Positions 14,694 to 34,725 of a stretch of 34,725 nt of DNA are shown here, piece after piece (the stretch's first letter is position 1; every line of letters begins with the position of its first letter). A program made the position numbers and the translations under genes. Source of the stretch: an uncultured Mycoplasmatota bacterium (GTDB taxonomy: Bacteria; Bacillota_I; Bacilli_A; RF39; UBA660); the NCBI GenBank assembly GCA_947569245.1, contig CANORV010000010.1, positions 1 through 34,725 on the forward strand, written 5' to 3'. The notes below the pieces were generated by a model, which had not been told where the DNA came from, did no database searches, and was given only the letters and a program-made list of their open reading frames with translations.

Positions 14694-14747
14694 ATGGATA
14701 ATAATGATACTCGTGCTGTGAAAGGTATAGTAATAGATGCAGGACAC
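14694..14747 (+). pseudogene. 5' fragment of an amidase gene, cut by a mobile element
   Basis: A good AGAGGTG site precedes an ATG at 14694 that opens an Amidase_3 domain: 18 codons ending KGIVIDAGH. The family then requires GGEDPGA, which is found 10.5 kb away at 25266. After 14746 the frame runs into element DNA and stops at 14778-14780. The cut falls inside the codon of the first zinc-binding His. No signal peptide precedes the domain, so the intact enzyme was probably cytoplasmic or phage-like. Confidence 0.88.
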
Positions 14748-14767
14748 CCGAGTTATGTATTCCCCAA
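14732..14767 (+). other. attL junction of the mobilizable element
   Basis: Amidase sequence to GCAGGA, then core CA (14745-14746), then element sequence with the TTCCCCAA half-site motif at 14760-14767. The inferred empty site reads GCAGGA-CA-TGGGGGAG. Confidence 0.8.
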
Positions 14768-23603: not shown

Positions 23604-25208
23604 ATGGAAAAGGTAGGTGTATATTGTAGACTATCTGATGAAGATAGATATAAGAAAAACAAAAATGATGATAGTGAGTCAATTGCTAATCAAAAAAGTA
23701 TGCTTTTAAAATATGCTTTAGAGCAAGATTGGGAAATCGTTGATATATATTCAGATGATGACTATTCAGGAGCAGGAACTTATAGACCAGATTTTGAAAG
23801 AATGATTAAAGATTGTGAATCAGGAAGAATTAATATTGTTCTATGTAAAACTCAAAGTAGATTTTCAAGAGATATGGAAGTAGTAGAAAAATATCTTCAT
23901 AATAAGTTTGTGGAATGGGGAGTAAGGTTTGTTAGTATTGTAGATAATGCAGATACGAATAATGAAGCCAATAAAAAATCTCGCCAAATTAATGGACTTG
24001 TGAATGAATGGTATCTAGAGGATTTATCTAATAACGTTAAGAAATCTTTAAAGAATAAAAGAGAAGATGGATTATATATGGGAAGTTTTGCTCCCTATGG
24101 TTATTTAAAAGATCCTAACGATAAACACAAGCTTGTTATTGATGAAAATGTAGCTTATGTAGTAAGAGAGATATTTGAAAAATATAAAGAAGGAATTGGT
24201 TATCATAGAATTTGTGCAAGTCTAAATGAAAGAAATATATTGTGTCCATCTCTTTATAAAAAATCTATAGGAAGTAATTTTGTTTGTTGCAACTTTAATT
24301 ATAAAACAACTGGTATATGGACTTCAGATACAATTGCTAAAATGCTTCAAAATGAAGTTTATATTGGTAACTTAATACAAGGGAAAAGAACAAATATTAG
24401 TTATAAAAATCATAAATCAAAAAAAGTTCCAAAATCTGAATGGTGTAGAACTGAAAATGCACACGAGTCAATCATTGATAAAGAAACTTGGTATTTAGTA
24501 CAAAAAAGATTAGGTAAACATGAGAAACCTATGTCTAATGGTAAAATTCATATTTTAAGTCAAAAAGTTTATTGTGAAGAATGTGGAAGAATATTTATGA
24601 GAAACCAATGCAATATTACTTGTGCAGGTGGAAAAGTAGAAAAAAGAGCATATCTTCAATGCAAAGGTAATAAAAAATATCATACTTGCGACAATAATCG
24701 TTCTATAAGACTAGATCTACTAGAAGAATATGTACTAAATGCAATCAATGAATTATTAAAGAAATGTAATGAAGCATTATTAAAAAGTGATTTAGAAAAA
24801 GAACTTAATAAAGAAAATAACCAAGATATAATCATAACTAATCTTAATAAAGAAAAAGCAAATCTTGAAAAAAAGATAAACGAAAGCAAATTATATTTTA
24901 AAAATCTTTATCAAGATAAGATGAAAGGTGTTATATCTGAAGATGATTTTCAAATGTTAAGAGAAGAATATACAAAAGATGTTGATGGTTATCAAACTAG
25001 ACTTGAAGAGATTGAAAACGAGCTAGGAGAAACAGAAGTCAGAAAGCAAAATTCAAAAGATATTGAGAGCATACTTAAGAAATATAAAAATATTAAAGAA
25101 CTAAATAAAATAATAGTTGATGAATTTATTGAAAAAATATATATTGGTAAGCTGAATAAGGAAACAAATACACGAGAAATCAGATTAGAGTGGAATCTTG
25201 ATTTATAA
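23604..25208 (+). CDS. Large serine recombinase (integrase of the element)
   Basis: This 534-residue recombinase excises and inserts the element. The resolvase domain has YCRLS with nucleophile Ser11, ANQKSMLLKYA, and CKTQSRFSRD (81-90) with active-site arginines. A recombinase domain follows (about 165-310: APYGYLKDPNDKHKL, IWTSDTIAKMLQNEVYIGNL), then a zinc ribbon (CEECGRIF and paired cysteines through about 365) and a C-terminal coiled coil (about 400-480) used to control direction. AGGTGAT precedes the ATG. It ends 57 bp from the right attachment junction. Tn4451 TnpX and Tn5397 TndX belong to the same broad group, though those use GA and this site shows CA. Confidence 0.95.
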   Translation: MEKVGVYCRLSDEDRYKKNKNDDSESIANQKSMLLKYALEQDWEIVDIYSDDDYSGAGTYRPDFERMIKDCESGRINIVLCKTQSRFSRDMEVVEKYLHNKFVEWGVRFVSIVDNADTNNEANKKSRQINGLVNEWYLEDLSNNVKKSLKNKREDGLYMGSFAPYGYLKDPNDKHKLVIDENVAYVVREIFEKYKEGIGYHRICASLNERNILCPSLYKKSIGSNFVCCNFNYKTTGIWTSDTIAKMLQNEVYIGNLIQGKRTNISYKNHKSKKVPKSEWCRTENAHESIIDKETWYLVQKRLGKHEKPMSNGKIHILSQKVYCEECGRIFMRNQCNITCAGGKVEKRAYLQCKGNKKYHTCDNNRSIRLDLLEEYVLNAINELLKKCNEALLKSDLEKELNKENNQDIIITNLNKEKANLEKKINESKLYFKNLYQDKMKGVISEDDFQMLREEYTKDVDGYQTRLEEIENELGETEVRKQNSKDIESILKKYKNIKELNKIIVDEFIEKIYIGKLNKETNTREIRLEWNLDL

Positions 25209-25242: not shown

Positions 25243-25280
25243 TTGGGGAAAACCGATACAAGCCATGGGGGAGAAGATCC
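25243..25280 (+). other. attR junction of the mobilizable element
   Basis: TTGGGGAA at 25243-25250 is the inverted partner of the left-end TTCCCCAA, followed by core CA (25264-25265) and resumed amidase codons GGG GGA GAA GAT from 25267. Confidence 0.8.
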
Positions 25281-25494
25281 AGGAGCAATAGGAAATAATT
25301 TACAAGAAAAGGATTTAACATTACAAGCAGCAAAATATATGTATCAAAGATTTAAGGAGTTGGGTATACCTGCTACAATAGTTAGAGATACAGATGAAAC
25401 CTTACCACGTGAAGAAAGAATTAGAAGAATAATGGACGCGTATGGCAATGATCCTAATGTAGTTTTAATATCTAATCACATAAATGCGGGTGGT
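25266..25494 (+). pseudogene. 3' part of the split amidase, itself cut short
   Basis: In frame with the 5' fragment it reads GGEDPGAIGNNLQEKDLTLQ (with the zinc-binding Glu), then PATIVRDTDETLPREERI, and VVLISNHINAGG with the third catalytic His. Family members continue with a GDGAEV-type segment and a final Glu. Here the reading changes at about 25494-25497 to ERFSYHC and stops at 25516-25518. The enzyme's last third is missing, so the gene was hit twice, by the element on the left and by a second event here. Confidence 0.85.
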
Positions 25495-25676
25495 GAAAGG
25501 TTCAGCTACCATTGTTAGATTTAATTGGGTATTTAGACGGCTGTATTTGAATGAAAGCAATTGAATGCAGAAGTTATTGAAAAAATGATTTTTGATTTAG
25601 TATGAGCCTAAAATTGAATTTTATTTAGCTTTTTTGGCTGAATTGCTTGCAAATTTAATTAATTTGTCGAGTTATG

Positions 25677-25776: not shown

Positions 25777-26721
25777 ATGGAAGTTATTTTAAAATTAAGA
25801 GATTATTATAATAGAAATTGTAAAAATTTGATTTTTGTCGGTGAAAGAAAATTAAGTAACTATAATAATTGCAAAATGTATTTTTTGGATGTTGAAAATA
25901 AAATAGAACTAAATAATTATAAAAAAGTATTTCAAGAATATTTGCTTTTCTATATTAGGAATAGGGATCATTTGAAATCAATAAAAAAAATTAACGATGC
26001 AACTACTGATGAGCTGCTATCAATAAATTTATTATATGAAGGAAAAAAAATTCGTAGTAATAAAGGATTATATCCACAAATTGATATTGAAAAATCTGGA
26101 ATATATGGAGAGTTATTTAATGATTTTTATTTAAATATTGTGAAGCAAGAAGAAGTTGTTTCAACTTATTCTTTACGAAGCTCTTTTAATCTTCCCAATA
26201 TTAAGGGTGTGGATTTAGTAGCGTGTAAAATAGAAAATAATAATTTAGTCATAATATTTAGTGAATCTAAATTTGTATCTAGCATATCATCTGCCTCATC
26301 AAGTCTTTGTGATGATATAGTTGGAACAGATAGTCAACTTGGACATATTACAAAAGATTATATTAATCAATATACATCTTTCATAATGAATAAAAATCAT
26401 TCTATTTATTTTGATAAGAACAATAGTAAATTAATAATGAATAAATTGAACGAATTAAATAATTTAATACTAAATCAGGAAATTGAACCAATTGATGCAA
26501 TAAATAATTTAAATATAAAAATTAGATTTGATTTTTTTGCAATTTATAATGACAGTAATTATAACATTGAAGAAAGAAGAGAATTTTTTTTGAAAATAGT
26601 TAACCAATTTAATAGTAATATACTTAATACAGGGATTAATAAATATGATATTGAAATTGTTTTTATACCAACAAAAAATAAATCAATGGATATAAAAAAG
26701 GAAGTTGAACAATGGGATTAA
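25777..26721 (+). CDS. hamA: HamA, Hachiman defence nuclease (DUF1837)
   Basis: HamA is the effector of the Hachiman anti-phage system; it pairs with the helicase HamB and attacks DNA once phage is sensed. This 314-residue protein shows a restriction-endonuclease-like core: SGIYGELFNDFYL (Glu112), LPNIKGVDLVAC (Asp146) and LVIIFSESKFVSS (Glu163, Lys165), the pattern of a D...ExK site. The first 90 residues and the last 80 are less conserved. GAGGTAG precedes the ATG. The last 10 bases overlap hamB, as expected for a stoichiometric complex. Identity rests on the DUF1837-like core plus the adjoining helicase. Confidence 0.83.
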   Translation: MEVILKLRDYYNRNCKNLIFVGERKLSNYNNCKMYFLDVENKIELNNYKKVFQEYLLFYIRNRDHLKSIKKINDATTDELLSINLLYEGKKIRSNKGLYPQIDIEKSGIYGELFNDFYLNIVKQEEVVSTYSLRSSFNLPNIKGVDLVACKIENNNLVIIFSESKFVSSISSASSSLCDDIVGTDSQLGHITKDYINQYTSFIMNKNHSIYFDKNNSKLIMNKLNELNNLILNQEIEPIDAINNLNIKIRFDFFAIYNDSNYNIEERREFFLKIVNQFNSNILNTGINKYDIEIVFIPTKNKSMDIKKEVEQWD

Positions 26722-29009
26722 ATAGATTTGATGTAATTAGACAAATTAATTTATATTCTTCTGAAGACAATCAAGAGGCATTAATTGATTTGTTATGTGA
26801 AATATTAGATGATGAAGAATTTAAAACTAGGAATTTGGATTTGATTGAAATAATAATTTCTATTGGTGAATTATATGGTTATTATAGTTATATAGAAAAT
26901 TTTGGTAAAACATTTGGTTATTCTGAAGCAATAAGAAAAAATATGTATAAAAGTAATGATGGTAAAATATATTATAATTCGGGTCAATTATCTCTTTTAA
27001 ATGAAATCAAAAATGAAAATAAATTATTTATTTCAGCACCAACTACATTTGGAAAAACAAAATTGGTTCTCGACTATATTTTATTAGAAGCAAATAATTT
27101 TAATAATATATTGTTTTTAATACCAACAAATTCTCTTTCTGAAGAAATATATATAAAACTGTTAAACTTCAATCATATTCATAATTTTGATTATCATATT
27201 ACGACTAATCCTAAAATTTTAGGAAATAAAAATATTTTGATTTTGACTCCAGAAAAATATTTATTATTGTTGGAATCTAAAGATATTGATTTTGATTTAT
27301 ATATTATGGATGAATCATATAAAATTGAAGAAGAAGATAAAAATATAGATTATGATGATCCATTGAATTCAAGATCTAGCAAATTTAGAAGAACAATGGA
27401 TATTATCGCTTCAAAACAAGGTAAGACAATTTACTTATCGCCATTTACTTATATAACCGATGATTCAATGAATAGATTTTTTGATAAATATAATGTAAAA
27501 AAAATTAATAGGAAAGATAAATATGTCAGTAAAAAGTTGTATAAAATAGCTGATAGCAGTGATTTTAAAATTATAAATAGTACTGCAACTGGTTTTTTGA
27601 AAACTATGAGTGGGGTTGATAAATCAGTATTTATTGTAAAAGAATTATTAGACTCAACAATTGTATACGTTAGATACCCCAAGGATGCTTTAGATTTTGT
27701 TAATAAATATAAACTAGATTGTAAAAAAGAAGATATAAGTGATAGATTTAAAAAATTTATGAAGCATATAGAGGATAATTATGAATTTGAAGGTAGTAAG
27801 TGGTATATTTTAGAAGGCTTAAAGAAGGGAATAGGTGTCTATGTTGCTCCTATGCCAAGATATATAAAACGTGAAATTGTAAAACTGTTTAATGATGGAG
27901 AATTAAAAATATTAGTTGTAACATCTGCTTTTGCTGAGGGTGTAAATAGTTCTGCAAAAAATATAATAATAACAAATGACGTAGTAGGAAGCAATGTTAA
28001 AATGACTTCTCTAGATTTATTAAATCTAAGTGGTAGAGCAGGCAGATTTGGAGTTCATAGTAAAGGTAATATTTTTTCTGTAAAAGATGATATTTACGAT
28101 AGATTAGTAGATTGTATTGATAGTGGTGTAAAAATATCTAATTCAAATTATGAAAACGGAAAAAATGGAAATGATAGAGCTTTATATGATATAGAAAAAA
28201 TAGACAAGAATTATTTAAGTATTAATGAATTAGACAAAAGGAATTTAGTTGAAGCAATACAAAATAGTTATAATTTAAGTGATTTAGATTTGAATATTGC
28301 CTTATCAATATCTAATTATGATAAAATTAGATTATATGATTTTTTTATGAAAAATAGTACTGATAACCTAATTAATACAAGAAATGAAATTATTAATAAT
28401 TTACTTAAAAATGAAAAAAAGGACGTTGTAATTTCTATGAAGTTTATATTTGATGAGCTGGTTAGTGCTGGCATAAAAATATCAAAAGAAAAAGGCGACT
28501 TACCACCATACAGCAAAAATAATGAGTTTTTATGGGGAAAATTTTATAGTATTCATTCTAGTGGGAATGTTAAAGAAATATTAAGAAGAAGAAAACAATA
28601 TATAGAAGAAAAGTATAACTTAGAAAAAAATAGCTTTGAAAATTCAAAAAGTTGGATTGATGAATATATAACAGATGGTAAAGTTGATGATTTTAAATTA
28701 TATAATCAGGCGTTTAGATTTATTTCTAATATAATTGAATATAGAATACCATTTTATGTAGGCTTTTATGTGTCTATATTTAAACTGTATTGTAAAAAAA
28801 ATATTGAAAACATTGATTCTAGTTATGATATTATTGAAATATCTAACAATTTAGAAAATAAAAATATAGATGAAGAATACGATGATTTAGTAGAATTTGG
28901 CTTTTCTATTGATATGATAAAAAAAATACAAATATCGAATGGTGATGTAAATTTGCTTGATGACTATGAAAAAATTATTTACAAAGAGTATAAGGCATTA
29001 GTATATTAA
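26712..29009 (+). CDS. hamB: HamB, Hachiman superfamily-2 helicase
   Basis: The 765-residue helicase has YYNSGQLSLLNEI as Q-motif-like region (87-99), Walker A ISAPTTFGKTK (107-117), motif II IMDESYKIEEED (198-209, a DESY form of the DEAD box), SPFTY as motif III, SAFAEGVN as motif V (405-412) and LSGRAGRFG as motif VI (439-447). The C-terminal 300 residues are helical and unrecognised. HamB binds and moves along DNA, holding HamA inactive until it meets abnormal DNA. The GRAGR motif fits the Ski2-like helicases to which HamB belongs. Confidence 0.87.
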   Translation: MGLNRFDVIRQINLYSSEDNQEALIDLLCEILDDEEFKTRNLDLIEIIISIGELYGYYSYIENFGKTFGYSEAIRKNMYKSNDGKIYYNSGQLSLLNEIKNENKLFISAPTTFGKTKLVLDYILLEANNFNNILFLIPTNSLSEEIYIKLLNFNHIHNFDYHITTNPKILGNKNILILTPEKYLLLLESKDIDFDLYIMDESYKIEEEDKNIDYDDPLNSRSSKFRRTMDIIASKQGKTIYLSPFTYITDDSMNRFFDKYNVKKINRKDKYVSKKLYKIADSSDFKIINSTATGFLKTMSGVDKSVFIVKELLDSTIVYVRYPKDALDFVNKYKLDCKKEDISDRFKKFMKHIEDNYEFEGSKWYILEGLKKGIGVYVAPMPRYIKREIVKLFNDGELKILVVTSAFAEGVNSSAKNIIITNDVVGSNVKMTSLDLLNLSGRAGRFGVHSKGNIFSVKDDIYDRLVDCIDSGVKISNSNYENGKNGNDRALYDIEKIDKNYLSINELDKRNLVEAIQNSYNLSDLDLNIALSISNYDKIRLYDFFMKNSTDNLINTRNEIINNLLKNEKKDVVISMKFIFDELVSAGIKISKEKGDLPPYSKNNEFLWGKFYSIHSSGNVKEILRRRKQYIEEKYNLEKNSFENSKSWIDEYITDGKVDDFKLYNQAFRFISNIIEYRIPFYVGFYVSIFKLYCKKNIENIDSSYDIIEISNNLENKNIDEEYDDLVEFGFSIDMIKKIQISNGDVNLLDDYEKIIYKEYKALVY

Positions 29010-29022
29010 GGAGCGGATTTAA

Positions 29023-29943
29023 ATGATTTATATAACAGGAGACATACATAGAGATTTTTATAGATTGCATAATATAGAAAAAAATGAAAATAATGTGGTA
29101 ATTATATTAGGTGATGTTGGTATTAATTATTGCTTAAATAAAGAAGATAATAAATGCAAAAAGTATTTAAACGATATGAATATAAAATTATTTTGTATTC
29201 AAGGTAATCATGAAGAACGACCTGAAAATATATCAAGTTATAAAGAAGTTGATATGTTTGGCGGGAAAGTATTTATTGAAGATGAATATCCAAATTTAAT
29301 ATTTGCTAAAAATGGTGAACTTTATACAATAGATGGTAAATCTGTACTTGTTATAGGTGGAGCCTATTCAGTAGATAATGATTATAGATTAGCATATGGG
29401 CATAGATGGTTTAAACATGAACAGTTAAGTGGATTCGAAAAAGAACAAATATTAAATAAATATAGTGGTAAACATATAGATATAATTTTATCTCATACTT
29501 GCCCTTTAAAATATGAACCAACTGAGGTATTTATGAAAGGATTAGATCAATCCAAAGTAGATAAATCTATGGAAATATTTTTAGATAAAATAGAAGAAAA
29601 TATTGATTATGATAAATGGTATTGTGGTCATTTTCATACAGAAAAACAGATTGATAAGCTAGAATTTATGTTTGGAAGAATCAAAATATTTAATAAAGAT
29701 GAATTCTATCCTAAATATAATAGAAATGGTTATGAAATAATAAGAGATGTTTATAGTCAAGATGAAGTTATGAAAGAAGAAGTTATTTGCCCAAAATGCC
29801 ATTCTAAAGATATATTGGTAATAAAAGGTGATGGATTTAGAATAGATGGAGCAGACTTTATTGGAATTACTTGCAATGATTGTCAAAAAGTTTATGGATT
29901 TGGTGATGTTAATTATAAGCCTAATTGCCCTAAAGAATTATGA
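29023..29943 (+). CDS. Calcineurin-like metallophosphoesterase with C-terminal zinc ribbon
   Basis: This 306-residue protein has all metallophosphatase motifs: GDIHRD (6-11), ILGDVG, QGNHEE, IGGAYSVD, LSHTCP and CGHFHTE. Residues about 250-306 add a zinc ribbon (CPKCHSKDILV, then CNDCQKVYGFG), which is not part of the usual phosphatase and suggests nucleic-acid or protein binding. It starts 13 bases after hamB with AAGGAG and no terminator between, so it shares the Hachiman transcript. Substrates of the fold range from nucleotides to DNA ends and phosphoproteins. It could be a third Hachiman component, a tRNA/RNA repair enzyme or a passenger. Confidence 0.85.
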   Translation: MIYITGDIHRDFYRLHNIEKNENNVVIILGDVGINYCLNKEDNKCKKYLNDMNIKLFCIQGNHEERPENISSYKEVDMFGGKVFIEDEYPNLIFAKNGELYTIDGKSVLVIGGAYSVDNDYRLAYGHRWFKHEQLSGFEKEQILNKYSGKHIDIILSHTCPLKYEPTEVFMKGLDQSKVDKSMEIFLDKIEENIDYDKWYCGHFHTEKQIDKLEFMFGRIKIFNKDEFYPKYNRNGYEIIRDVYSQDEVMKEEVICPKCHSKDILVIKGDGFRIDGADFIGITCNDCQKVYGFGDVNYKPNCPKEL

Positions 29944-30004
29944 AAAGTATTTGAAATAATAAGAGATTGAATTAAAAAAATAATTAATTTCGTGATATAA
30001 TTAT

Positions 30005-30025
30005 ATTGATTATTTTTTGTGAGGT
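30005..30025 (+). promoter_or_regulatory. Region upstream of the endonuclease gene
   Basis: An AT-rich leader leads to GTGAGGTGG just before the ATG at 30032; a TATAAT-like hexamer lies slightly upstream, near 29997-30002. No -35 of good quality was seen. The 88-bp gap suggests separate expression from the Hachiman unit. Confidence 0.4.
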
Positions 30026-30031
30026 GGTAGT

Positions 30032-32044
30032 ATGACATTTAAAAGTTATAGTTGGTCTATTGGAACAACCAGTTTTAGAACAAGCCAGCTAAACTATAAA
30101 ATTGAAAGACAGTTACAGCTTTTAAAGGATTTTTGGCAAAAAAATTTAGATCTAGATTGGAATTATAAAGGAAGTATAAAAAATATTAAATTATTAAATG
30201 ACGAGAAATATCCATTACAAATTAAGTATTATGAGTATATGAAAGAAAATGATTTTATAACTGGAAATGCTAAAATTAGAGATAAAGACGCTAGAGAAAA
30301 AACATCAGGATTAGTTAATATTGGTATGCTTACTAAAGATAGAAAAATAACTGAAGTTGGTTTACAAATAGAGAGTTTATTGCATATAGAGCAAACAAAA
30401 AATAATATTTTTTATATTGCAGATGATAGCTATAATTATCTACTACAGTTTTTAAAATTACAGATAGATGAAAAAGGAATAAAAATAAAACCTTTTATAG
30501 CATTACTATACATGCTTGAAAAATTAGATTATTTAACATATGATGAATTTACATATTTGTTGCCATTGTGCAAAAACAAGTATGATGTTAGAAAAATGGT
30601 TGAAATTATAAAAAATAGTAGAATGGCATTAGATGTAGATACTATCATCACAACAAGAATATATGACATGGATAATTATTTACGTGCATTTGAAGAATTT
30701 AGAAAAGACTATCCGGTCAATGAAAAGACATTTGAAATGATAGGAATGAATAGAAAAAGTGCTAGTTATGAACATGCATATTTACCTGTTTATAATGAAT
30801 TAGTTAATTTAGCTTTTCATTTAAGACACAACACATTTGAAGAAAGAATTGAATCTTATAATAAATTGCATGAATATTGTAAGAATATTTCTGGTAATGC
30901 TAAATCTTATTGGAATGAATATTTATTCATGGGATACAGGCCTAGAACTTTTGACGAAGAATTTGATAGAAAATTCAGACAATTAGAAATATCAGAGGTT
31001 AAGAATATAATTGATTTTAAAAGAGTGTTTTTTGAAAGAGAACATATAATAAAATGGAAAGTAAATTTAAAAGAATATTTTGACTTAAATAAGAGATATT
31101 TTTCATTAACAGATATCATAAAATTTGAAGATGAAAAAATAGAACTAGATCTACTACCTAAGTATTATTTTAAAGATATTATAGATGATTTATTAAATGA
31201 GGAATTACTTTACGATAAAGAATATTATGCTTTATTCCATTCAGTTGTTCCTATTGAAAAAATTTCTAAGAAATATACTACTAATATTGAAAAAGTCGTA
31301 AATGAGATAAATAAAGATTTAAATACTGATTTAACTGTTAGTAATATTAATACATATCTAGAAGACGAGAAAATTAAACAATTTAATCAATTGATAGATG
31401 AAAAATTCAAGGGAACTGATTTATTAATGTTATTAGATTTAATAAAAAATAGAGATGATTCTGAAGTTTGTGAATATGTTACTGATAATGCTGATGTTCC
31501 AACTATTTTTGAATATGTTCTTGGAATAGCATGGTATAGAATAAGCGGCCAAAAAGGAAATATATTAAATTATATGAATTTAAGTTTGGATGCCGATTTA
31601 CTTCCTAAAACACATGCGGGTGGCGGAATGGCAGATATTGTTTATAAGTATGAAGAAGATTCTTATCCTAGACATGATTTGTTGATTGAAGCAACATTAT
31701 CTGAATCTACAGGGCAAAGAGTTATGGAAATGGAACCTGTTTCTAGACATTTAGGTGAAAATATAAAATTAACAAAAAATGAAAAAGATTATGCTATACT
31801 TGTTGCTCCCCAATTGGATGAGAGAATAGTGTTAGATTTTAGGAGTATGAAAAATAGATATTATCCTAAAGGAAATGATGAGTATATAAATGGATTAAAA
31901 ATTATTCCAATTAGCATAGATATACTAAAAAAGATTATAAATGAAAATAAGGATTATAATTATATATATGATTGGTTTGACAGTGCATACAAATCAACAA
32001 TTCCAGATCCAATATGGTATCAAAAAGAAATATTAGAAAAGTGA
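30032..32044 (+). CDS. AlwI-family type IIS restriction endonuclease
   Basis: This 670-residue protein opens SYSWSIGTTSFRTSQLNYKIERQLQLL, the usual start of AlwI-family enzymes, and near 545-570 has the conserved PRHDLLIEATLSEST then EMEPVSRHLGENI block. AlwI cuts outside the asymmetric site GGATC; relatives include the GAGTC enzymes PleI/MlyI and the nickase N.BstNBI, so the exact site here is open. Length is a little above family norms. The matching double methyltransferase follows. GAGGTGG precedes the ATG. Confidence 0.87.
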   Translation: MTFKSYSWSIGTTSFRTSQLNYKIERQLQLLKDFWQKNLDLDWNYKGSIKNIKLLNDEKYPLQIKYYEYMKENDFITGNAKIRDKDAREKTSGLVNIGMLTKDRKITEVGLQIESLLHIEQTKNNIFYIADDSYNYLLQFLKLQIDEKGIKIKPFIALLYMLEKLDYLTYDEFTYLLPLCKNKYDVRKMVEIIKNSRMALDVDTIITTRIYDMDNYLRAFEEFRKDYPVNEKTFEMIGMNRKSASYEHAYLPVYNELVNLAFHLRHNTFEERIESYNKLHEYCKNISGNAKSYWNEYLFMGYRPRTFDEEFDRKFRQLEISEVKNIIDFKRVFFEREHIIKWKVNLKEYFDLNKRYFSLTDIIKFEDEKIELDLLPKYYFKDIIDDLLNEELLYDKEYYALFHSVVPIEKISKKYTTNIEKVVNEINKDLNTDLTVSNINTYLEDEKIKQFNQLIDEKFKGTDLLMLLDLIKNRDDSEVCEYVTDNADVPTIFEYVLGIAWYRISGQKGNILNYMNLSLDADLLPKTHAGGGMADIVYKYEEDSYPRHDLLIEATLSESTGQRVMEMEPVSRHLGENIKLTKNEKDYAILVAPQLDERIVLDFRSMKNRYYPKGNDEYINGLKIIPISIDILKKIINENKDYNYIYDWFDSAYKSTIPDPIWYQKEILEK

Positions 32045-32046
32045 TT

Positions 32047-32075
32047 AAAGGTAGTTGTTAGACTATCTTTTTTTT
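32047..32075 (+). terminator. terminator after the endonuclease gene
   Basis: AAAGGTAGT (32047-32055) pairs, with one wobble, to ACTATCTTT (32062-32070), then T to 32075. Confidence 0.75.
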
Positions 32076-32083
32076 GTTATAAT
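32055..32083 (+). promoter_or_regulatory. Methyltransferase promoter embedded in the endonuclease terminator
   Basis: TTGTTA (32055-32060), lying in the terminator loop, and TATAAT (32078-32083) are separated by 17 bases. The methyltransferase can thus be made independently of the endonuclease. Confidence 0.6.
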
Positions 32084-32128
32084 ATAAATATAATATGATG
32101 CCTAAAATGGAAATAAGGATGGTGTACT

Positions 32129-34096
32129 ATGAAGAATATTACAATTAACAATAGAAGATATATAGGTAGTAAATCAAGAATGATTAGCTTTATAAAAGAA
32201 GTTATGGAAAAGGAAAAAATTGAATATTCTTCATTTTTAGATTTATTTGGAGGAACAGGAATTGTAGGAGATTTTTTTAATGATTCAAAGACAAAGATTT
32301 ATGTTAATGATTTATTAAAGTCTAATTATCTTTCCTATTTAGCATGGTTTGGAAATGATAAAATAGATAAGAAAAAAATACAAAAATATATAGATAGTTA
32401 TAATTCTTTATCGGAACTAAAAGATAATTATTTTTCAATTAATTTTTCTAATACATATTTTAGTAAGGAAAATTGTAAAAAGATAGGTTTTATTAGGGAA
32501 GATATTGAAGAAAAATATATTAATGGAATATTAAATATTAGGGAAAGAGCAATTTTAATCACTTCTTTATTGTATGCTATGGATAAAATTGCTAATACTG
32601 TTGGTCATTATGATGCATATAGAAAAAATGGGAATTTAGATAGACAATTAGAGTTATGTATGCTAAATTTAAAATCTAATACTAATAATAAAAATAATAA
32701 AATATTTAATGAAGATTCTAATGAATTGGTTAGAAATATAAAAGCTGATGTAGTGTATATTGATCCACCATATAATTCAAGACAGTACTCTGATGCTTAT
32801 CATTTATTGGAAAATGTTGCTATGTGGGAAAAAAATGAAGTTTTTGGTGTGGCTAAGAAGATGGAAAGAAATGGTATAAAGAGTAAATACTGTTCAGTTT
32901 CTGCACCTTTAGCATTTAAAGATTTAATAGAAAATATAAATGCCAAATATATTATTGTTTCTTATAATAATATGGGTAATAAAGGTGCAGGAAGATCTCA
33001 AGCAAAGATTAGTGATGAAGATATAATTACAATTTTAAATAAAAAAGGGAAAGTAAAAAAATATGAGATAGATTTTGCTCAATTTAATACAGGGAAAACC
33101 CATATAGAGAATCATAAGGAAAGACTTTTTGTTTGTAAAGTTGGAAAAATTACTAAATCTAGAAAGAAAAAAGCTATAGTATGTGAAGATAAAGTAAAAT
33201 CACCATTGAATTATACTGGAGGAAAATATAAGATATTAAATCAAATAATACCAATATTTCCTAAAAATTTAGATTTATTTGTTGATTTGTTTTCAGGAGG
33301 AGCTAATGTTGGAATCAATGTTAATGCAAAGAGAATTGTTTGTGTGGATAAACAAAAGGAGATTATTCGTGTTATGAATTTGTTTAAAAAGTATGAAGAT
33401 GGCTATATTATAGATACTCTTGAAAAACTAATTAATAAATATGAATTAAGCAATTCGTTACTTAATGGTTATGAAATATATAATTGTACTAGTGATAAAG
33501 GATTGGGATCTTATAATAAAAATAAATATATACAATTGAGAAATGACTATAATAAGATTAAGAATGATTCTATAGAAAAAGATTTTTTATTTTTACTATT
33601 AGTTATTTATGGATTTAATAATCAAATAAGATTTAATTCTAACGGTGAATTTAATATGCCTGTTGGTAAAAGAGATTTTAATAATTCTTTAAGAAAAAAT
33701 TTAAAGAATTTCATTACAAAGTTAAAAACTAAAAATATTGAGTTTGTTAATTCGGATTTTAGAGAAATTGCAATTGAAACTGCAAATAATACACTAGTAT
33801 ATTGTGATCCACCATATTTTCTAGGTACTGCTAGTTATAATGAAAATGGTGGATGGACTGAGAAAGATGAAATAGATTTATTAAACTATTTATCATTATT
33901 AGATAGTAAAGGAATAAAATTTGCTTTATCAAATGTTATAGAACATAAGGGCTCTAAGCATAATGTGTTGGAATCTTGGGTTAAAGAACATAATTACAAA
34001 ATTCATTTTATTGATTGTGATTATAATAATTCAAATTATCATAAACAAAATGGAAATATTACAAAAACTAAGGAGGTTTTAATAACAAATTATTAG
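32129..34096 (+). CDS. Fused double D12-class adenine-N6 DNA methyltransferase
   Basis: A 655-residue protein made of two Dam-like methyltransferases. The first (1-340) has YIGSKSRM (11-18), the SAM-binding LDLFGGTGIVGDFF (37-50) and DPPY at 212-215. The second (355-655) has SPLNYTGGKYKIL, VDLFSGGANVG (385-395) and DPPY at 560-563. M.FokI and relatives use the same fusion, each half methylating one strand of an asymmetric site, which fits an AlwI-type type IIS nuclease. Both catalytic motifs are complete. AAGGATGGTG precedes the ATG. Confidence 0.9.
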   Translation: MKNITINNRRYIGSKSRMISFIKEVMEKEKIEYSSFLDLFGGTGIVGDFFNDSKTKIYVNDLLKSNYLSYLAWFGNDKIDKKKIQKYIDSYNSLSELKDNYFSINFSNTYFSKENCKKIGFIREDIEEKYINGILNIRERAILITSLLYAMDKIANTVGHYDAYRKNGNLDRQLELCMLNLKSNTNNKNNKIFNEDSNELVRNIKADVVYIDPPYNSRQYSDAYHLLENVAMWEKNEVFGVAKKMERNGIKSKYCSVSAPLAFKDLIENINAKYIIVSYNNMGNKGAGRSQAKISDEDIITILNKKGKVKKYEIDFAQFNTGKTHIENHKERLFVCKVGKITKSRKKKAIVCEDKVKSPLNYTGGKYKILNQIIPIFPKNLDLFVDLFSGGANVGINVNAKRIVCVDKQKEIIRVMNLFKKYEDGYIIDTLEKLINKYELSNSLLNGYEIYNCTSDKGLGSYNKNKYIQLRNDYNKIKNDSIEKDFLFLLLVIYGFNNQIRFNSNGEFNMPVGKRDFNNSLRKNLKNFITKLKTKNIEFVNSDFREIAIETANNTLVYCDPPYFLGTASYNENGGWTEKDEIDLLNYLSLLDSKGIKFALSNVIEHKGSKHNVLESWVKEHNYKIHFIDCDYNNSNYHKQNGNITKTKEVLITNY

Positions 34097-34212
34097 TATA
34101 GAAAAAATAGTAAAAAAAAAAGAAAAATTGAATTATAGACTATAATAAATCAAGAGATAGAATATGATAAAGTAGAAATAAATTTCTATATGCTTTAGTG
34201 AAGGTATGAATA

Positions 34213-34464
34213 ATCTAGTTTATTATCCAAAAATAATTTAGTGTACTTTTCGCGTACGATTTGAATACGATTTAGTTTACTATTTAAAGTCAATTTAGTT
34301 TACTATTCGACTACTAAAAAAATACAATTTAGTTTATTGACTAAATACAGTCAAGTGATAAAATGGAGTAAACTAGAGATATTATGCAAAGAAATATGTA
34401 CTATTTAGTTTACTAATTAGTGTACTAAATTGTTTACTTTTTGGTTTATTATTTAGTTTATTGT
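34213..34464. repeat. Cluster of about nine degenerate TTTAGTTTACTA repeats
   Basis: Copies of (A/T)TTAGT(T/G)TA(C/T)T occur near 34215, 34236, 34269, 34292, 34326, 34402, 34416, 34440 and 34451; a reverse copy lies near 34367. Spacing is irregular, from about 11 to 75 bases. The stretch 34097-34460 has no gene. It resembles an iteron or multi-site protein-binding array such as a replication, partition or recombinase control region. Confidence 0.7.
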
Positions 34465-34489
34465 TTTGTTGATGTCAATAGATTATAAT
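34461..34489 (+). promoter_or_regulatory. promoter after the repeat cluster
   Basis: TTGTTT (34461-34466) and TATAAT (34484-34489) at 17-base spacing. The last repeat copy reaches into the -35, so a repeat-binding protein could control it. Confidence 0.65.
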
Positions 34490-34513
34490 GTAATAAAATA
34501 GCAATATTTATGG

Positions 34514-34534
34514 GAAGACTTAGGTCTTCTTTTT
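34514..34534 (+). terminator. terminator 25 bases after the promoter
   Basis: GAAGAC (34514-34519), loop TTAG, GTCTTC (34524-34529), then TTTTT. The resulting RNA would be about 35-40 bases long, suggesting attenuation of the gene that follows. Confidence 0.75.
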
Positions 34535-34559: not shown

Positions 34560-34686
34560 ATGACTAGTCATCCTATAAAAATTACTGATTTTATTAAAAT
34601 AGGATGATAATAACAGATTAATATCTATTATAAATAAAGGGTTAAATAGAGAAACATCCTTTATATTAATCTACGAAGTAGGATGA
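34560..34686 (+). pseudogene. Frameshifted small ORF at the end of the window
   Basis: GGAGGTGAT precedes ATG at 34560. The frame reads MTSHPIKITDFIKIG and stops at TGA 34605-34607. Moving one base back into the overlapping frame at GGAT continues a natural-looking protein, DDNNRLISIINKGLNRETSF then ILIYEVG, to TGA at 34684-34686. The two halves look like one 40-residue protein split by a single-base deletion, or joined by frameshifting. I do not recognise its function. Only 39 bases follow, so the next gene, possibly the integrase of this second island, is outside the window. Confidence 0.5.
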
Positions 34687-34725
34687 ATTTCGTAAGTACG
34701 AAATAAGAATAGCACCATTAAATTT

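Follow-up and report, generated by a model that had tools for sequence, protein, structure and literature searches.

Genes and features of the locus

The window, i.e., the whole stretch of DNA analysed (34,725 nucleotides), constitutes one entire contig, C10, of the 1.4-Mb assembly of an uncultured Mycoplasmatota bacterium. A first element, with a serine recombinase gene at 23604-25208, splits a gene for N-acetylmuramoyl-L-alanine amidase (14695-14748 and 25252-25509), and the similarity to the amidase ends near 25509, the probable left end of a second element in the same gene. At the far left of the window a reverse transcriptase gene (990-2024) lies near a small protein resembling the MutS N-terminus (147-599); on reading, the two look like parts of a diversity-generating retroelement. 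The region studied here belongs to the second element, and the window ends within its leader. The following features were assigned:

29023-29943, forward strand: cargo gene, calcineurin-like phosphoesterase (PF00149), with an orthologue in the G185 element (L147:4088-5008)
30032-32044, forward strand: cargo gene, AlwI-like restriction endonuclease (PF09491, 3.6e-63)
32129-34096, forward strand: cargo gene, D12-class adenine methyltransferase (PF02086, 1.2e-60), upstream of the array
34105-34180, forward strand: relic of an ancestral promoter region, with a decayed TAGACT...TAGAAT at 34136-34163
34214-34339, forward strand: array 1, five full units with weaker ones between, period about 11.5 bp
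34337-34364, forward strand: promoter P2, -35 box TTGACT overlapping the last unit of array 1, 16-nt spacer, -10 box TAAAAT
34404-34463, forward strand: array 2, units at 34404, 34416, 34440 and 34452, period 12 bp, also present in G185
34461-34489, forward strand: promoter P3, -35 box TTGTTT overlapping the last unit of array 2, 17-nt spacer, -10 box TATAAT
34512-34534, forward strand: hairpin resembling an intrinsic terminator, between the promoters and the gene (MFE -10.3 kcal/mol, z -2.5, followed by T5)
34560-34725, forward strand: leader with a short ORF/hairpin (34560-34607) and the start of a long inverted repeat, cut by the window end

Two loci in related genomes, G185 and G270, are 94% identical to the right end of the window and continue past it with a small CopG-like gene, an HTH_36 gene and then a large serine recombinase gene. 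The gene just beyond the window, left to be identified by the preliminary description of this DNA, would by this homology be the first of these small DNA-binding genes; since the contig stops before the recombinase gene, the presence of the latter in the window's element rests on the same homology. At the corresponding place upstream of the array, G185 encodes two proteins that on reading look like a C5 methyltransferase and an endonuclease, and G270 has type I-like R-M genes (by reading). No secretion genes were noticed in the part of the G185 element that was read or among the window ORFs at 25777-34096, the window's element being truncated by the end of the contig. Rfam returned only tRNAs in the window and in the first four related loci.

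The terminator-like hairpin is kept in G185, G270, G050 and G301. The leader has CATCCT/AGGATG repeats at 34569, 34601, 34655 and 34680, and its complete structure with the long inverted repeat is present in G185 (folding z -7.5); it is possibly an oriT or a recombination end. Leader DNA (34569-34725) matches about 100 of the 291 genomes of the family, often behind unrelated genes.

Two phased arrays, each ending in a promoter

The preliminary description had reported a single cluster of about nine units in some 250 bp, mainly in one direction. The count was borne out: nine forward TTTAGTTTACTA-like copies (≤2 mismatches) start at 34214, 34237, 34271, 34294, 34328, 34404, 34416, 34440 and 34452, all within 34214-34463. 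In 500 dinucleotide shuffles of 34201-34480 the mean was 0.29 such units and the maximum three, every other 280-nt stretch of the window holds at most one, and the exact 12-mer TTTAGTTTACTA occurs six times in the assembly (three copies here, two in a second array on contig C90 and one solitary). By all three counts a similar density does not arise by chance in the AT-rich DNA of this genome.

The spacings split the cluster into two arrays, so that its units stand and its unity does not. In array 1 they are 23, 34, 23 and 34 nt (autocorrelation z 5.3 at lags 23 and 34) and in array 2 they are 12, 24 and 12 nt (z 6.2 at lag 12). The gaps of array 1 are occupied in register by weaker units, TTTCGCGTACGA and TTTGAATACGA, from which it follows that the underlying repeat is 11-12 bp, about one helical turn plus one base. 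The prevailing direction was likewise confirmed, while the reverse copy reported near 34367 is probably not a true reversed unit, since 34366-34377 coincides with AGTAAAAT, a motif just 3' of the -10 box that is common to related promoters.

Each array runs into a promoter. The final unit, TTTAGTTTATTG, contributes the TTG of a -35 box in both cases, and thus a promoter inside the last copy, as first described for what is now P3, is not confined to that copy but recurs as P2 at the end of array 1. The P2 spacer contains AGTCAAG, creating the palindrome TTGACT-N7-AGTCAA, and the P2 core, GTCAAGTG-TAwAAT-xx-AGTAAAAT, is common to most of the 29 listed loci. The geometry of P3 recurs in the G064 ICE and in tRNA-Leu elements. 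In other genomes, too, the TTG of the last unit begins a -35 box 16-17 nt from the -10 box at promoters of this array type (read by eye), hereafter called TTTAG. Several array promoters, having a fair -35 box, might fire unaided.

Upstream of array 1, the relic is 83% identical over 76 nt to the promoter region of the orthologous module in G149, which has no array, and 79% identical over 97 nt to G301. The match to an array-less promoter suggests that the array-promoter cassettes are probably later additions in front of an ancestral module.

A replication or partition site had been among the first candidates for the cluster. As iterons of an origin or a centromere of parC/tubC type, the repeats would secure inheritance of the excised circle. 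The geometry does resemble parC, which usually lies upstream of parM, and a minimum of two 11-bp repeats is required by ParR of R1 (PMC9426499). ParR/parC systems also fall into families, e.g., those of C. perfringens, in which diverged repeat arrays are matched by cognate readers (PMC9426499), and the arrays described here share with parC the short tandem repeats before a promoter and their divergence by family. They differ in that the units overlap the -35 box, each array being tied to it at fixed spacing, and in that they occur at several operons of different elements. Moreover, reading and scanning of the neighbouring genes turned up no initiator (Rep), ParA, ParM, ParR or TubZ gene, and no partition genes were seen in the window's module as continued in G185 or among the ICE proteins scanned. 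We consider an origin or centromere the least probable explanation of all, and the initial suggestion gained no support.

The same array in four kinds of mobile element

A motif search of the genome and its relatives, as had been proposed for checking the cluster, revealed the second array on the organism's own contig C90 and TTTAG arrays in 13 of the 291 family genomes, in four kinds of mobile element; no matches were found in viral contigs, phages or plasmids. Array 1 is homologous at 75-91% identity in the 13 genomes, and the unit sequence is conserved across genera. When natural variants were aligned (array alignment A3, leaving out the G299 row) they differed by gaps of 12, 23, 34 and 45 nt, i.e., by whole units.

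In the first setting, the array lies between a gene for a 91-aa protein and a serine recombinase gene, mostly beside a tRNA-Leu gene (C90, G079, G064 C36, G011 and G299). In the second, a related 90-aa gene is followed by the array directly before the recombinase start (G320 and G050 C38; truncated in G300), and the G320 element adjoins what reads as a tmRNA 3' end. The third setting is the class of the window itself (G185, G270, G301 and G050 C15). In the fourth, the array forms the leading promoter of an ICE (G064 C5 and G222 C65). The proposal that the cluster controls the recombination genes of the second element is supported on two grounds: the same DNA precedes the DNA-binding genes and the serine recombinase gene in G185 and G270, and in other elements recombinase genes have this array as their promoter region. 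A protein-binding array, as was also proposed, is supported as well.

The 91-aa protein was considered as the array reader and rejected, as it also precedes recombinase genes without a TTTAG array and is absent from the window's class. Its predicted model (pLDDT 92) gave no fold match in a PDB search. The family to which it belongs (L007:463-738 and relatives) is present in 158 of the 291 genomes, often adjoining tRNA and tmRNA genes. As a separate observation, serine recombinase genes at six loci (L082, L092, L097, L100, L157 and L177) are broken at an identical codon (..IYTRV or a similar sequence followed by CCGTTGTAATACATAGGCAGACAC), as though their catalytic motif were the target of another element.

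Phased A/T tracts might work by bending the DNA or as extended UP elements, with the unit sequence being immaterial. Some arrays are indeed rich in phased A or T tracts, and arrays of the TTACAG, TTTTGCA and AAAAAGCATC types are predicted to be more curved than shuffled sequences. Against this stand the conservation of the unit across genera and the Bolshoy wedge model, which predicts for the window's two arrays and for the ICE TTTAG array a curvature that does not exceed that of shuffled sequences (z -0.1, 0.0 and -1.1). Intrinsic curvature was accordingly rejected for the window's arrays, where z is about 0, and as a general explanation it is very improbable.

An ICE-encoded regulator as candidate reader

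Behind its array the ICE on G064 C5 encodes a 174-aa regulator, a thioester-domain surface protein, SSB, a VirB4-like protein, VirD4, a MobL relaxase and a tyrosine integrase; the front end is the same on G222 C65. Given that the same array stands at the leading operon of an ICE and in three kinds of smaller element, the reader would most likely be supplied by the ICE. The 174-aa protein, the first sizeable gene behind the ICE array, appears to be the best candidate, with a probability that we place between a minority view and an even one. It matches PHROG 248, 'transcriptional activator' (7e-7), and has weak similarity to models of sigma region 4 and ArpU; its score against TIGR01637 (15.5 bits) is below the cut-off of 43.1 and does not make it a member of the ArpU/RinA family. 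For a homologue from a viral contig the predicted model had a pLDDT of 48. Across 18 loci, array similarity correlated with identity of the 174-aa protein (Mantel r 0.25, p 0.0025), as it would for any ICE-linked gene, so that the identity of the reader is something we infer. The candidate resembles the ArpU/RinA-type phage activators (PHROG 248, TIGR01637) in its weak matches and its first position in the operon, and differs in belonging to an ICE; in the literature searched we found no description of an array of this kind for ArpU/RinA activators. Homologues at L225 and at G083:C2 (L224) precede giant genes whose products read as YD/RHS-repeat proteins, and no ICE is evident around them.

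A close homologue of the 174-aa protein is present in only two of the 13 TTTAG genomes, G064 and G222; the G083 homologue is 51% identical and accompanied by a remnant array, and none was found in the window's own assembly (72% complete). The missing homologues could be due to gaps in the assemblies or to a helper that is present only at times. Their absence from most TTTAG genomes also speaks for a host-encoded DNA-binding protein that reads the arrays of all elements. A single host reader leaves unexplained why quite different array sequences occupy the same place in orthologous modules, and we regard this explanation as improbable.

Somewhat less improbable, though still unlikely, is self-regulation, in which the small element's own HTH_36, CopG-like or XRE protein would repress or activate the module, and the sharing with the ICE would reflect recombination of promoter cassettes. 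The HTH_36 and CopG-like genes lie directly 3' of the promoter, and the palindrome in P2 would suit a repressor. However, the array-less orthologue in G149 retains the HTH_36 recognition helix of the TTTAG elements (RAITRLLKEL), which makes HTH_36 a poor candidate for the reader, and no HTH_36 matches were found at the ICE loci scanned. As to the CopG-like protein, its N-terminus (MRIFKLYLP) is identical in G185, which has a TTTAG array, and in G292, which has a AAAAAGCATC array, and G301 has kept the array without having the gene.

On balance we lean towards the view that the cluster is a tandem-duplicated operator array that serves the recombinase-module promoters of an integrated, R-M-carrying element and is read by an ICE-encoded activator. 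A protein would bind cooperatively along one face of the DNA, to units of 11-12 bp that follow each other at one turn of the helix, and the last unit, overlapping the -35 box, would set the bound protein against RNA polymerase, where it would activate rather than repress. Transcription would then cross the terminator and the leader into the small DNA-binding genes and the large serine recombinase gene. The smaller elements would have copied or stacked the operator array of the ICE, thereby timing their recombinase, and the window's element would depend on a helper ICE and fire its recombinase module when that helper is active, to its presumed benefit.

Array types and the shared promoter core

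Homologues of the 174-aa protein are often preceded by the core GTCAAGTG-TAwAAT-xx-AGTAAAAT together with an array of another sequence. One such array, of the 12-bp TTTACAGTATGA type, precedes a 38%-identical regulator at a further ICE-like locus (G222 C1). A AAAAAGCATC array is present at a G051 locus with a regulator of the 174-aa type and also at the orthologues of the window's module in G292 and G070. Further array types before 174-aa homologues are TACCCCCAAA in G263 C1, GGATACCCAAAA in G173 and TTTTTTGGTAG in G218. A periodic (11/12-bp, z >2.5) upstream region was detected for 34% of the 29 core promoters compared to 5% of 150 control promoters (p 4e-5), a contrast that is conservative, since two to three of the 29 core matches lie inside genes and are probably due to chance.

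Several types may also be combined. The integrated element on the organism's own contig C52 has a TTTACAGTATGA-type array beside a TTTAG array, with its own promoter, and TTTACAG arrays are present in smaller elements on C52, in G299 and on G079 C23. On C52 and on G299 C15, arrays of the TTTTGCA-like, TTACAG, TTTAG and ACCAG types stand in series, each followed by its own promoter, and the series leads to a transposase-like ORF in C52 and to the start of a recombinase gene in G299. Two of these four types also occur at ICE regulator promoters; TTTAG stands at the ICE operon in G064 and G222 as well as at recombinase modules, and TTACAG at the G222 C1 regulator and in C52. No TTTTGCA or ACCAG arrays were found in ICEs, all their occurrences being in recombinase elements.

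These combinations raise the tentative idea, to which we give rather less than even weight, that operator codes of 11-12 bp are specific to the individual ICE lineages of these gut Bacilli and that smaller elements stack several such promoters as an OR gate of helper signals. Any of several helpers could then fire the same recombinase.

Relation to known helper-controlled islands

Helper-controlled islands have been well worked out in Gammaproteobacteria, with SGI1 and AcaCD as the example. Excision of SGI1 is driven by AcaCD of its IncC helper (PMC4605294; reviewed in PMC5704250), and SGI1-related islands are excised by the helper activators AcaCD or SetCD (PMC4605294, PMC5704250). As in the SGI1/MGI systems, one operator is found here at promoters of the putative helper and of the recombination genes of an integrated island, and the logic that we propose, an integrated element timed by the activator of its helper, is the same. 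The SGI1/MGI site is one 13-bp inverted repeat with flanks, bound by an FlhDC-type protein, whereas here there are five to ten tandem 11-12-bp units; the target is xis in the former and a serine recombinase module in the latter. Unlike SGI1/MGI, the unit sequence changes from one ICE to another, some islands have several array types in series, and the reader is a candidate. In the part of the literature covered, no description surfaced of phased operator arrays common to ICEs and serine-recombinase elements in this group.

Taken together, our data suggest that small mobile elements take their cue from the signals of larger ones. If so, a large group of uncultured gut Bacilli would have an independent version of helper control, with modular and quickly diverging operator codes, and the spread of R-M defence cargo would be tied to the activity of particular ICEs. 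Which element mobilises which would then become readable from promoter DNA.
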